Of a stretch of 64,000 nucleotides of DNA, positions 17,570 to 55,468 are shown piece by piece. The position numbers were made by a program, and so were the translations under genes. Position 1 is the first letter of the stretch. Each line of letters starts with the position of its first letter. Source of the DNA: Methanosarcina horonobensis HB-1 = JCM 15518 (GTDB lineage Archaea > Halobacteriota > Methanosarcinia > Methanosarcinales > Methanosarcinaceae); the NCBI RefSeq assembly GCF_000970285.1, contig NZ_CP009516.1, forward strand, positions 2,087,036-2,151,035. Direction: 5' to 3'. The notes below the pieces were generated by a model. It was not told the DNA's origin. It saw only the letters and a program-made list of their open reading frames with translations, and made no database searches.

Positions 17570-19474
17570 TTATCTATTATTTTCTGTAGCACTGAAATTT
17601 ATGGTAAATTTCGTTCCACCGTTTCTTTTTAGCTGAATTTTACCATCTAACTGGTCCACTAAACTATTTACCAGCTGGAGGCCCAGCGTACCGGGGTCTT
17701 CGAGATTAACTGTTTCCGGAATGCCAGATCCGTTATCGGAAATTATCAAGGCGTATCGAGCGCTTCTTCGAGCAGATTCTTCTTCTCTACTGCTTAATTT
17801 ACTGCTGTCCTTTTTTTTAAAGAGTTTAATTTGAATTTTTCCTTTGTCCCTACCTTTAAATGCATACTTTAAGGAATTGGATATCAGCTCATTAACGGTC
17901 ATTCCCAATGGGACGGCAATATCCGTGTCAAAGAATATATCATCTTCGATATTCAGGTTTAAACTGATATCAGTGTCTCCAACTCTGTAAGTCTGGAAAA
18001 GATTTTTAGCAAGTTTTTCAAGATATAACGAGAAATTCAGAGCATCATCTCTTCCTCCCTGATGCAGTTCCTTATGGATAAGTGCAATAGACATTACTCT
18101 GTCCTGGCTTTCCCTGAAGCCTTCAAGGACTTCCGAGGCTTTAATAGTCTTTCTATTTCTGAATTTTTCAGCCTGGAGATCCAGAAGAGAGGAGATTACC
18201 TGAAGATTATTTTTGATTCTATGGTGCGTTTCCTTTTTACGGGCAATTTCAAGATTTTCCAGAGCTTTTTCTGCCTCTTTTTTCTCAGTGATATCATAGG
18301 CGGTCCCCTGGTATTTATCAGGTCTTCCATCTTTTCTCTGGACTTTCTGGTAAGACTGGTGCACCCATATTATTTTGCCGCTCTTATGCATGATCCGAAA
18401 GTCAAGCTCCCTAGATAAATTATAAGATGATACTCGGATGTCTTCTATATCTTTAAGGACAAGTGGCAAATCTTCAGGATGAATAATTCCCACCCATGAA
18501 ACTCGCCTTAAAAGGAACTCTTCTTCACTATATCCGGTTATTTCTTTTACCTGGCCATGCATAAACTCCGGGAAAAAATTTTCATCCAGCTGGAAGGCAA
18601 TCCCCTTAAAATTCTGTATAAACGACCGATAGTTCTCCTCACTAAACTCCAGTCTTTCCTGGACAAGCTTCCTCTCGGTGATGTCTTTCATCACACCAAG
18701 AGCTCTATTTACACTGCCTTTTTCATCTTTCAGGCAGATCAACTTTTCTTCTATCCAGGCGTAGCTCTCATCCATCCTCCTGAATCTGTATTCCATACAG
18801 AGATTTTCCCCACATTTTATGCAATTTTCAAAAGTCTGCCAGATTCTGTCCCGTTCTTCCGGATGAACTCGATTTAACCATACATCGAGACCTGTACTTT
18901 TAAAGTTTTTTGAATCAAATCCCATAAGTTTTCTGGTAGCTCCAGACCAGGAAATTTTCTTATTTGTTATATCATAATCAAATACGATTTGTCCTGTTTG
19001 TGTCGTAACAACTCGATATCTTTCCTCGTCTTTCTTAAGCTTCTTCTCTACTTCATCAAGTTCTGTAATATCCTGGAGTACTGTAACCAGTCCGGCAATT
19101 TCACCTTCCTCATTGTCAAAGGTCGACTTATTTACCAGGAAAGTTCTTTTTATTCCGTCTGCACAAATTCCCTCGTACTCATGTGTGCTTGCTCCGCCAC
19201 GATTGAGAAGCTCGGTATCATCTGTATTCCACTCTGCTACATGCTCCAGCAGAAGTGTCTCGTTTACAAAAGTTCTTTCGGGAAACTTTTCAACAATCTT
19301 GCTGGCCACTTCAGGCAGAGTATATCCGATAATCTCTTCTTCAGGAAGACCGACAATCTGTCTAGCAAAAGTTCTGTTTACTCTAACATAAATTCCATTC
19401 CTGTCTTTATAGCAGATAGGGTTAAGCATTGTATCGAGCATATTTCTTATAAAATAACAATTATTTTGAGGCAT
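17570..19474 (-). CDS. Triple-PAS sensor histidine kinase (HisKA_2 type)
   Basis: A 634-residue soluble kinase. Three PAS domains follow each other: first with NPICYKDRNGIYVRVNRTFA, second with GQIVFDYDITNKKISWSGAT, third with GIAFQLDENFFPEFMHGQ. The C-terminal kinase has HisKA_2 (KKETHHRIKNNLQVISSLLD) and HATPase (NELISNSLKYAFKGRD; IISDNGSGIPE). It has no transmembrane helices and no MEDS domain. The kinase half is closely related to those at 15279-17033 and 57730-60138, so these three belong to one expanded family. No cognate regulator is encoded nearby. The second PAS motif (TQTGQIVFDYD) matches one in the 57730-60138 kinase, suggesting module shuffling. Confidence 0.92.
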   Translation of the reverse strand: MPQNNCYFIRNMLDTMLNPICYKDRNGIYVRVNRTFARQIVGLPEEEIIGYTLPEVASKIVEKFPERTFVNETLLLEHVAEWNTDDTELLNRGGASTHEYEGICADGIKRTFLVNKSTFDNEEGEIAGLVTVLQDITELDEVEKKLKKDEERYRVVTTQTGQIVFDYDITNKKISWSGATRKLMGFDSKNFKSTGLDVWLNRVHPEERDRIWQTFENCIKCGENLCMEYRFRRMDESYAWIEEKLICLKDEKGSVNRALGVMKDITERKLVQERLEFSEENYRSFIQNFKGIAFQLDENFFPEFMHGQVKEITGYSEEEFLLRRVSWVGIIHPEDLPLVLKDIEDIRVSSYNLSRELDFRIMHKSGKIIWVHQSYQKVQRKDGRPDKYQGTAYDITEKKEAEKALENLEIARKKETHHRIKNNLQVISSLLDLQAEKFRNRKTIKASEVLEGFRESQDRVMSIALIHKELHQGGRDDALNFSLYLEKLAKNLFQTYRVGDTDISLNLNIEDDIFFDTDIAVPLGMTVNELISNSLKYAFKGRDKGKIQIKLFKKKDSSKLSSREEESARRSARYALIISDNGSGIPETVNLEDPGTLGLQLVNSLVDQLDGKIQLKRNGGTKFTINFSATENNR

Positions 19475-19835
19475 TTATTTTACTTCCGGAATTTTATTAT
19501 TCAGTACTCGAAACGCTGAGGTTTATTACTGGTTTGTAATTTTGTAGTTTCAGTTCTTTTGCACACAGGGTTTTTACAATTATTTGCGATCATCTCATTT
19601 TTTCTCCCATCCCTCGTTTTTAAGAAAAGGTTCTATTATTGATTAATTTTTACATGTATTTTCATCTAAAAGTATAGTGGAAGGAGCTAATAGGTAGCTT
19701 TGTCCTGCAATATTACTTTTAACAAGGTCTATAGTTCTGCTAATTTTTTATTTTCCAGCAGTACTTCTCGAAGAGTAAATACCGATTAAGCAGATTAATT
19801 TTGATGAAATTTTTTTGCTTGTAGTTTTAAAAGTA

Positions 19836-19923
19836 CTAAGACGATAATTTATTTTAAATTAATTATATCAAAAATTGCTTCTAAGCGAAAAGAAGTTTAA
19901 TGTTGAAAATTTAAAGCCTAGGA
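19836..19923. repeat. Direct repeat A flanking an RNA candidate
   Basis: About 85 bases, including ATTTATTTTAAATTAATTAT, TTTAATGTTGAAAATTTAAA and GCCTA, recur with about 75 % identity and in the same orientation at 20300-20387. The pair brackets the hairpin-rich segment at 20142-20222. The surrounding 19475-19835 gap holds no gene. Confidence 0.5.
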
Positions 19924-20141
19924 TAACTTTTTATATATAATGCTTATGAGAGTGCATCATTTTGAGGAAATTAAAATTTTTAAGATACTATGGTTATTTA
20001 ATTGTATCCAAATTTTCGATTAGAAAAACCTTTTTATAATCCTACCTAAGTAAATGCCCTGTATATCTGCATATTGAAAGTGAAAAACGTGATAGAAGGG
20101 AAAACAGGAATTTAAGAATAGTAAGAAGAAACCTAGAGGCA

Positions 20142-20222
20142 CTGGATCCATACTGCATCCCCCGATACAGTCTCTTCGAATGTTATGCTCCCCCAAGCAT
20201 ATCGATTCGAAGGAAGGATCAG
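20142..20222 (-). ncRNA. Candidate structured RNA: three-way junction with two G-loop hairpins
   Basis: On the minus strand an outer stem CTGATCC/GGATCCAG (one bulge) encloses two arms. Arm 1 is TTCGAAT/ATTCGAA with an inner ATGCT/AGCAT stem and a TGGGGG loop. Arm 2 is a perfect 8 bp stem ACTGTATC/GATGCAGT (with one G-U) closing a GGGG loop. This amount of nested pairing in 81 bases is far beyond the neighbourhood. A minus-strand 80-codon frame crosses it but looks non-coding. It may be a small RNA or a leader; the family is not recognised. Confidence 0.5.
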
Positions 20223-20299
20223 CGACCCCCGGGTAATTCTTTATGCGGTAGATTTTCCCCAACTCTCTATCCCATCTTACTTCCCAACTCCAGAATATA

Positions 20300-20387
20300 C
20301 TAATAAGATAAATTATTTTAAATTAATTATACAAAAAATTGTTTCCAAACAAAAAATAATTTAACGTAAAATATTTCAAGCCTATCA
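20300..20387. repeat. Direct repeat B flanking an RNA candidate
   Basis: Second copy of the 19836-19923 repeat (AATTATTTTAAATTAATTAT, ATTTAACGTAAAATATTTCA, AGCCTA). It lies just upstream (minus strand) of the structured segment at 20142-20222 and could contain its promoter. Confidence 0.5.
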
Positions 20388-20529
20388 TGAGATTTTCTTA
20401 TGTAACTCGAGTTATTTTCAATGTAATTAAAATTTTCAATACAATATAATTATTCAATTATATTAAAGTTTAAAATATGAACTAATTTTTTGCATCAATT
20501 ATGATATATATAACCCTGTTATTATATAT

Positions 20530-20657
20530 GTCTGGATTAAGGGTAATAGGGTTTCCTCTTAATCTATGGGTTGGATCGCAGGTAGGGACCTCGAGAATAG
20601 GGACTCAGACCCTACCATCTACTTTTAAACTGGACCCGGAGATATTGCCTCTTTTTT
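20530..20657 (+). ncRNA. Candidate small RNA with TATA box and U-tract end
   Basis: A TATA-like ATATATATAAC at 20504-20514 precedes the segment by about 25 bases. The body can form GATTAAG/CTTAATC (20535-20541 with 20558-20564) and GGTAGGG/CCCTACC (20581-20587 with 20610-20616), the latter enclosed by GGGT/ACCC. It ends in CCTCTTTTTTA. Spacing of box, stems and T-run fits an independent transcript of about 125 bases. No open frame explains it, and no known family is recognised. Confidence 0.45.
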
Positions 20658-20828
20658 ATCATTTCTGGATTTGTCCCTAGCTTATATTTGATTTGTGGCT
20701 CTATTGAGGATTATATTGACCTGAACTTTGAGTTTGGATTTAACTGAAAAAAAAGCTCAAATTAGTGTTTATTTTTGCCCTTCAAGGGCCTGGAAATTTA
20801 TTTATGTTTTAGATATTAATAGTATAAT

Positions 20829-41469: not shown

Positions 41470-41667
41470 GCACCCGAGTTGTATTTCGGGATCACAGGAA
41501 ATTATAGATATCTTCGATCGATGCAACGTCATTATCTATACCGAACCATTCTTGTACGCTCGACGAAGGAGAGCGGCCTTGCAGACAAATAAGAAGAAAA
41601 AGACTGGAAAGTAGAAATCGAAAAACGACTGAGAAAACCGGCTTCAGGATTAAGGAAGCTTTTACCC

Positions 41668-43248
41668 TTAACCCAGAGCCTTTCTAATTTTTCCCATTTT
41701 GGTAAGGGTCGAGCATACAAGCTGCGAGACTTCTTCATCCATGCAGTTTCCTGCTGTCCCTGCCTGCAGAAGGTCGGGCTGCATCATTTCGAGCAGGATG
41801 CGGTATGAGGGTTCGGGTCTGACTTTAAGGTTGAATGTGTCGCTCAAAACCTCAATGTCTTTACGGACTTCTTTCAGGCAGGCCTCTGAAATGAAGCGGG
41901 AGGCTACATTCAGGTCCAGGTAACCGGAAGCAAAACTCAGGTCGCTGCCAAGGGAAGGAAAATATTTAGTAAGTAGTCTTTCACAGGTTTCCTCGCCGAG
42001 TTTTTCCCGGGCTTCTTCAAGGGCAGTGCCTGTGCCTATAAATTCGGGAGGCAGGCCTATTGAGTAGAGGGCGCCGGTGAACTTTATAGCTCGTGGCAGG
42101 TGCAGATCTTCCGAAGGCATGCTCGTTTCGAGCTCTTTTCCGATATCACTGCGGCAGAGACTTACAAGGCATGAGATATCCGGAGCGTTTCTCGAATAAC
42201 CGCCTGTTCCTTTATGCATCAGACGGTCCCGCTGCTGGGGGAGGAGACATGCGAGCTGGTTTATGGCAGGGGACAGTTCACGGATAATGCGGCTATACCT
42301 TGTCCCGAAAACTCCTATAAGGTTTATAATTTCTTCTTTCTCTTCACTGGAATAGATATTTGGAGATTCCGGAAGCCTTGCCTCTGCAAGACGGACAAGA
42401 GCTTCAGCTTCTCCTTTTCCATGGCTGTACCTGACAGCTGACTGCAGGGTGATTGTACTTATGCCCCTGTACTCTCTGAAGAAGTTTTCCGCGTTTTTCA
42501 GGTTCAGGTTTCCCCTGAAAGGTAGAGTCCCTGCTCCGAATATGATGCCTGTGCCGGTATCGAGTTCCGAGTTCAGTTCGGAAATTCCGCTTATGGCGTA
42601 TTTGCACGAGAGTGTGCTTGCCACATGTCCGAAAGAGAGAGCAGAGTCGGACTTGCCCAGGAAGACCCTGAACTTTTCAGGTGCTGTTCCGAAGCGTTCT
42701 TCCCAGGAAAGGATCGTACTTTTTACCAGTTCCTTTGCATGAAGAAGGGCAGGAGCGTCTTCTATAAGGGGAATTATACGCGGGACTTCCATTGCAACCC
42801 CGAATTCCTTTTTTGCAAGCTCGCCCACATCTACCATGTGCTGCTGAGCATCAAGGATCTCTCCTACCGTAGCTGTCATGGGGTGCACGAATTCGTTAAT
42901 TGCCTGCACATCCGAGTATTCAACGGCTCCGTAATTGGCTTCGGCAATGGACATCATGACCATAAGCTGCCTGAAGCGATTTTCCTGCGCTGCACTCGGA
43001 GCCCTCGGAGTGATAAAAATGTCTTTTCCGGGTATCAGGTCTGTTTCTTCTATGAATTTTGATACTATCTGGACGTTCTGGTGGTAAGGTGTCGCCTTCC
43101 CTTCATAATCCGGCATATATTCATCACAGCCGAATACCACTGCAGCTTCAATGGCTTCACCGGGTTCTTCCTGCGTGGAGATATACTTTGATGCAGAGTC
43201 CGGGTGCTGCGTGCACATTACTTTAGGATAGGTTGCTTTCCTGCTCAT
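41668..43248 (-). CDS. ppcA: Phosphoenolpyruvate carboxylase, archaeal type
   Basis: A 526-residue archaeal-type PEP carboxylase, about half the length of the bacterial enzyme. N-terminal KVMCTQHPDSASKYISTQEE is the family signature. Other blocks: PRAPSAAQENRFRQLMVMMS, EVPRIIPLIEDAPALLHAKE, RVFLGKSDSALSFGHVASTL and the C-terminal LLEMMQPDLLQAGTAGN. It makes oxaloacetate from PEP and bicarbonate to feed the incomplete TCA pathway in methanogens. The ATG follows GAGGGTCC. It is transcribed alone, divergent from the mini-Hcp gene across a 362-base gap with a palindrome. Confidence 0.96.
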   Translation of the reverse strand: MSRKATYPKVMCTQHPDSASKYISTQEEPGEAIEAAVVFGCDEYMPDYEGKATPYHQNVQIVSKFIEETDLIPGKDIFITPRAPSAAQENRFRQLMVMMSIAEANYGAVEYSDVQAINEFVHPMTATVGEILDAQQHMVDVGELAKKEFGVAMEVPRIIPLIEDAPALLHAKELVKSTILSWEERFGTAPEKFRVFLGKSDSALSFGHVASTLSCKYAISGISELNSELDTGTGIIFGAGTLPFRGNLNLKNAENFFREYRGISTITLQSAVRYSHGKGEAEALVRLAEARLPESPNIYSSEEKEEIINLIGVFGTRYSRIIRELSPAINQLACLLPQQRDRLMHKGTGGYSRNAPDISCLVSLCRSDIGKELETSMPSEDLHLPRAIKFTGALYSIGLPPEFIGTGTALEEAREKLGEETCERLLTKYFPSLGSDLSFASGYLDLNVASRFISEACLKEVRKDIEVLSDTFNLKVRPEPSYRILLEMMQPDLLQAGTAGNCMDEEVSQLVCSTLTKMGKIRKALG

Positions 43249-54749: not shown

Positions 54750-55468
54750 GTATGGGAAAAACCGACCGTGACTAAAACTCTATCCAGATAGGTAGCCCAG
54801 ATAGGTAGCGGAGACTTCTCAAAGGGAAGAGGGAAATATCAAGGATAAAACTCTCGTCCCGGAAACTGCAATTTCAGCGTCCTTGAAAAATATTTACAAA
54901 ATAGATTCGTAGAAATTTTCTAAATAAATTATTTTTTATTTAAATTTTTTTGATTATAATTGTCATGATGTGCTTTTTAGGGAATAGTCCATTGTTAGAT
55001 TTTTTTTAAGATTCTGGAAAACAATAAAAACATTACTAATATTAAATTGTTGTTTGATTTTAAAATATTTTAAATAAAACTAACATTTTATCAGGAACAA
55101 TTTTTCTGATAATTAATTTAAAATAAAATCGGGACATTGTATATTATAACGGAGAGAACAAGTCTAAAAGAGTGGAAATAACCGGTAGGGTATGTGAAAA
55201 GATAATTGCCTGGAAGACTTTTTTCCAGTTTCGAATAACTAAAATCAAGGGGAGAACTTTCGGAACCACTGTATCGGGAACTACAGTAAAAAGAAAAATG
55301 ATTCTTTCAGGCAATTTCCTCCTATTTCTTAATGCGCTTTTTATCCAGTGGCTTCATAACTGTTTTTTGTCTGCTGTTTTGATGTTTTTCGGGCTCTTTC
55401 ATTCAGTTAATGTAAGACTAAATAACCTCTGGAATTTATTAGTTAACTTTGCTGGCATCGCAGATAGT
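54750..55468. other. Intergenic gap after the CheBR fusion
   Basis: No supported gene. A TATA-like GTATATTATAA at 55139-55149 precedes a 107-codon plus frame (55172-55495) with unconvincing composition and overlap with the next gene. I see no strong hairpin. Confidence 0.35.

Follow-up and report, generated by a model that had tools for sequence, protein, structure and literature searches.

The window analysed here, a 64,000-nt stretch of the Methanosarcina horonobensis HB-1 genome, holds what appears to be one gene of a previously uncatalogued family of small structured RNAs, called RNA A below. Judged from sequence and alignment, there is about an even chance that the locus belongs to a multicopy, co-regulated and independently transcribed sRNA family whose members would act in trans through twin GGGG loops, most likely by contact with a protein. 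Of the elements of this reading, the structure is the firmest: RNA A is almost certainly a structured noncoding RNA. The predicted transcript (Table 1) would begin with a conserved 5′ end (GGAGUUGGGAAGU), continue through a variable linker into the structured domain, and finish at UUCUUCUUAC; its putative start is placed from a TATA box about 27 nt upstream, and its predicted transcription rests on promoter and covariation.

Table 1. Features of the RNA A and RNA B loci in the window (window coordinates)
Feature	Position	Strand	Basis and remarks
RNA A structured domain, three-way junction	20125-20242	-	covariance model R1, 119.0 bits, E 9.7e-34; covariation
RNA A predicted transcript	20117-20291	-	sequence, alignment and fold; both ends putative
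P1 outer stem, 3′ strand	20132-20144	-	alignment structure, R1
P1 outer stem, 5′ strand	20220-20233	-	alignment structure, R1
Hairpin A	20173-20213	-	GGGG loop at 20191-20194; fold and alignment structure
Hairpin B	20152-20171	-	GGGG loop at 20160-20163; fold and alignment structure
Second RNA A copy, divergent	55200-55318	+	R1, 41.4 bits
Family promoter of window RNA A	20297-20387	-	sequence model R2, 70.4 bits; TATA-like TTTAAAATAA at ~20313-20322
Stand-alone family promoter	19834-19923	-	R2, 56.4 bits, E 1.5e-16; upstream of PAS histidine kinase gene 17570-19474
Family promoter of second RNA A copy	55054-55133	+	R2, 34.2 bits
RNA B window copy	20532-20624	+	model R3, 102.8 bits; divergent from RNA A
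RNA B flanks			TATA-like TATATATAA at ~20508-20516
RNA B extent	20532-20658	+	T-run at ~20652-20657, a possible terminator

A sequence-only reading had proposed a three-way-junction RNA at 20142-20222, and this candidate holds, on the minus strand: homologues covary, and protein-like conservation is absent. The outer stem and two arms nest as that reading described, and the minus strand of the span folds at -33.0 kcal/mol (z -3.9; none of 200 shuffles folds as well), while the plus strand folds less well (-26.2 kcal/mol, z -3.3). Hairpin B has the 8-bp stem and GGGG loop ascribed to it, one of the pairs being G-U, and hairpin A has the outer and inner stems expected of it, its G-rich loop being GGGG with a U-G closing pair. 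The structure given for the span therefore stands, but its extent does not: the lower outer stem was cut off, and the covariation-supported structure lengthens the domain to the limits in Table 1. The surroundings are indeed free of genes, with none of 100 aa or more from 19474 to about 20850, unsupported overlapping ORFs excepted.

Approximately 90 RNA A copies were gathered and aligned, and the structure drawn from them has 41 pairs. These fall into five helices, namely P0 (AAGAA/UUCUU), P1, hairpin B, and a lower and an upper stem in hairpin A. The homologues do carry the compensatory changes by which the sequence-only reading proposed to judge the candidate. In a MAFFT alignment of 56 sequences (A1), pairing holds in 92.6% of cells and two-sided changes occur at 30 pairs, with 0 of 500 shuffles as high, while slid structures pair in 43-55% of cells. 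The model-aligned set of 118 distinct sequences (A3) pairs in 92.8% of cells, with two-sided changes at 38 of the 41 pairs and 358 double-change cells versus 100 in shuffles (again 0 of 500 as high; slid structures, 41-49%). Having been aligned to the model structure, A3 is biased towards it; A1, whose structure was drawn from A1 itself, gives the same picture. It is this covariation over 118 distinct homologues, rather than folding energy, that excludes a chance fold. The GGGG loops are among the most conserved positions, remaining nearly constant while the stems covary. Neither the whole window at gathering score nor a 1.2-kb local search at E up to 5 matched any Rfam 15 family.

It is extremely improbable that the locus is instead a small protein gene. 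Open frames do cross the region, for example an 80-aa ORF with a TTG start at 20020-20262, but 294 of the 317 indels among homologues (93%) are not multiples of three, only 23 being so, and at most 74 of the 118 copies keep any given reading frame uninterrupted. The second outcome by which the candidate was to be judged, protein-like conservation, is thus not observed.

RNA A very likely has its own conserved promoter, nearly identical from copy to copy. The sequence-only reading had noted an 85-bp direct repeat bracketing the structure; the repeat is real (19834-19932 versus 20298-20396, 78% identity over 99 nt), and on sequence evidence it is the family promoter, a conserved AT-rich block of about 95 nt, one copy of which is predicted to drive the window RNA A while the other stands alone. 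Nearly all RNA A copies have this block directly upstream; its TATA-like element precedes a conserved GGAGUUGGGA, the likely RNA 5′ end, by about 27 nt. No RNA A match follows the stand-alone promoter; it could be a remnant, or the PAS histidine kinase gene could be expressed from it. In the window's own genome the sequence-only model R2 has 23 matches, 17 of them at RNA A copies, so that 17 of the 18 copies have a promoter just upstream. The exception, at genome positions 414571-414691, is without one; a promoter truncated at position 74 of 94 lies at 412313-412385, transposase genes separate the two, and this RNA appears to have been split from its promoter by their insertion. The transposase genes (L040, 3433-5241) stand among the members of an RNA A array. 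Five R2 sites are without an intact RNA A, namely the stand-alone promoter of the window and genome positions 1887797, 1340405, 1341015 and 1722382. A decayed RNA follows the first of these genome positions, and the last adjoins an RNA B copy (see below); 1340405 and 1341015 lie on either side of a response-regulator gene. The flanked regulator (1340405-1341099; L166, L171, L214) is of the single-domain kind, with a MEDS-type histidine-kinase gene adjoining, and the same kind of response-regulator gene is found beside RNA A copies in other genomes.

The family is confined to a narrow set of the genomes surveyed. A search of the window's genome with DNA of the 20142-20222 region gave 12 matches, and matches were found in all 31 Methanosarcina genomes. 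Covariance model R1, on which, with the other models, the genome-wide work in the window's genome is based, finds 18 copies there, and in the class it finds RNA A in 31 of 31 Methanosarcina genomes and in all four genomes of a second genus of the same family (g5), and the 203 further genomes of the class give no match. Copy number reaches about 18 per Methanosarcina genome. Copies lie, for example, at 2577994-2578111 and 5369065-5370046 of G001, presumed to be M. acetivorans, and at 1740461-1740576 of G008, presumed to be M. mazei, all on the minus strand. Because no more than 15 candidates were scored in each genome, the total of about 265 R1 matches is a minimum. Among named genomes, the two-loop pattern occurs in 24 stretches, of which 22 are from Methanosarcina, one is from a 'Methanosarcinaceae archaeon' and one from a 'Euryarchaeota archaeon' bin. 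The second RNA A copy of the window, 35 kb from the first, has a family promoter of its own. A divergent family member (L168; genome positions 2752794-2753135) lacks hairpin A, and its 5′ part contains a possible 22-aa ORF (MEHELEEVERDFIEFRKEMGED) after GGGGG.

The genomic arrangement of the copies suggests an old array and a later spread. Several genomes have three to four distinct RNA A genes in an array beside a URO-D-family gene (PF01208), two of these arrays with a beta-helix protein gene on the far side from it, and in one g5 genome (G112) all six copies form one array beside the same URO-D gene; an array of three to six RNAs at this gene is thus common to both genera. In the tree, array types I and IV each cohere across species, as orthologues do, while a single group (support 97) unites 62 of 74 dispersed copies with 9 of 10 type II members and one g5 copy; the alignment of 119 columns resolves little beyond these. 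The dispersed copies, the window copy among them, group with one array position. We infer that type II, with its promoter, spread from the old array. Many of the dispersed loci are common to more than one species; they adjoin LysE, GGPP-synthase-like, pyruvate-synthase-like and exonuclease-III-like genes, names given by sequence resemblance and confirmed by Pfam for LysE only. At the LysE locus, flanking sequences align only in the conserved elements and not outside them.

A second multicopy RNA candidate, RNA B, lies head-to-head with RNA A in the window; it was first noticed as a conserved element directly upstream at LysE loci. It has two hairpins, each with an AAUAGGG-type loop, and an alignment of 34 sequences has 95.9% of its cells paired and two-sided changes at six pairs. 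Its structure is less firm than that of RNA A, because two of the five covariation measures (pairs with two-sided changes, and pair types) are not clearly above shuffles; the window copy alone folds no better than shuffles. R3 matches occur in 29 of 31 Methanosarcina genomes, in all four g5 genomes and in both genomes of a further related genus (g4). Across 85 sources with RNA A there are 17 RNA B matches, and 16 of the 17 stand head-to-head with RNA A at 218-323 nt, an arrangement expected in one in four under random orientation. At some loci RNA B occurs in tandem dimers. A weak R3 match at window 41609-41676 on the minus strand (18.3 bits, E 0.037) is probably due to chance.

Sensor genes are also frequent near RNA A. 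Of 15 RNA A loci, 8 have a histidine-kinase ATPase domain, of which the genome has 76, at a distance of 3 kb or less; circular shifts predict 1.2 such loci, and 2 in 20,000 shifts reached as high a count. This proximity is a lead only, because long intergenic spaces around histidine-kinase genes may contribute to the count. A speculative and rather unlikely extension is that RNA A and RNA B, unrelated in sequence, constitute an archaeal RNA circuit of repeated head-to-head pairs, linked to two-component sensors, whose G-rich loops are read by a dedicated archaeal RNA-binding regulator.

RNA A shows two features of a trans-acting multicopy sRNA, a conserved promoter for each copy and a compensatory structure without coding conservation, and on this sequence evidence it is probably a trans-acting regulator. 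In the mechanism that we propose, one signal would cause many copies to fire together, yielding abundant RNA; this RNA would act in trans, the junction holding two identical loops that bind one common partner; and the partner would be a regulatory protein that binds RNA and that RNA A titrates or delivers, much as CsrB/RsmZ RNAs do with theirs. That the loops bind protein is a tentative suggestion, to which we give somewhat less than an even chance. It is also possible, if unlikely, that RNA A is a trans-acting antisense family, the GGGG loops and single-stranded UUGGG stretches pairing with C-rich mRNA sites in LhrC-like fashion. Bacteria are known to have multicopy sRNAs that share one promoter and use repeated loop motifs (LhrC, PMC4132741), and UUGGG occurs in 11 of 45 variable linkers, versus 1.2 in shuffles. 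However, exact 8-mer loop complements (TCCCCCAA) are not gathered at gene starts, 3 of 65 lying within -150 to +40 of a start versus 9.9% of random positions, and sites complementary to UUGGGGGA number 131 genome-wide versus 92 for the reversed pattern, with about 27 inside the RNAs themselves, and are not in clear excess. The gene-start test covers one genome, exact 8-mers and an automatic ORF caller, and with this scope it makes mRNA pairing no more than less likely. A protein partner is nevertheless likelier than mRNA pairing, since the loops hardly differ between paralogues or species and loop-complement sites are unenriched at gene starts.

Two further readings compete with these. The copies could be a MITE-like non-autonomous element spreading a cassette of promoter and RNA, the RNA serving its own spread and not the host. 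The dispersed copies do come mostly from one array type, with its promoter; at the LysE locus cassette and promoter are present together in 8 of 27 genomes and both absent from the other 19; and a decayed copy is present (L162). This reading is nonetheless improbable, given that no terminal inverted repeats occur around the window copy or in the alignment, that two genera retain the array next to the same URO-D gene, that the two-loop pattern has no match in viral contigs, and that compensatory stem changes extend over deep divergence, as would not be expected of a dead element. Still less probable is a cis-acting leader, whether riboswitch or attenuator, of a downstream gene. The ancestral array does lie upstream of the URO-D-family gene on the same strand in both genera, as the window copy does with respect to the PAS histidine kinase, but the dispersed copies share no common downstream gene, their 3′ neighbour is often on the opposite strand, and every copy, the apparently split one aside, has its own promoter and a T-rich end. 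A riboswitch reading was dropped because the downstream genes differ.

The bacterial RNAs CsrB, RsmY and RsmZ offer repeated G-rich hairpin loops to a shared partner, binding CsrA or RsmA; RNA A may be likened to them in its repeated G-rich loops. The LhrC RNAs are bacterial, have C/U-rich antisense motifs (UCCC loops) and are not known to form a three-way junction. RNA A nevertheless resembles LhrC of Listeria in its several near-identical sRNA genes, common control and repeated loop motif (PMC4132741). Closer in phylogeny, sRNA162/sRNA171 of M. mazei measures 191 nt and has three stem loops, SL2 and SL3 being joined by a single-stranded linker of 39 nt; it adjoins an ArsR gene and has two copies in M. 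mazei (PMC3510493). Like RNA A, these are Methanosarcina-specific stem-loop sRNAs with more than one copy and conserved promoters (PMC3510493), but the three-way junction and many copies set RNA A apart from the published description. In genome G008, where RNA A copies and their neighbouring ORFs were read by eye, no ArsR-like neighbour and no arrangement like that of sRNA162/sRNA171, with two copies a few genes apart beside such a gene, was recognised; this genome, presumed M. mazei by an exact published-primer match that also occurs in G027, is a species representative and perhaps not strain Go1. Identity with sRNA162/171 is therefore unlikely. sRNA154 of M. mazei, about 130 nt, is likewise an intergenic Methanosarcina regulatory RNA (PMC3177094, PMC11549558), but its published primer maps to G008:1649692, and to position 2243734 of the window's genome, away from all RNA A copies, which excludes identity. 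The open-access literature searched describes no multicopy Methanosarcina RNA of this kind; the 2009 M. mazei sRNA survey lay outside that search, and single RNA A members may be listed there as individual candidates.

Few archaeal regulatory RNAs are known to us, most of them encoded by single genes. With up to about 18 copies per genome and a genus-wide distribution, RNA A would rank among the larger archaeal sRNA families known to us, and its family promoter would also mark a regulon. One shared promoter and a fixed loop motif recur across a genus of model methanogens for which genetic tools exist (M. acetivorans, M. mazei), and RNA A would therefore let the use of protein-titrating or multicopy RNAs in archaea, as in bacteria, be tested directly.
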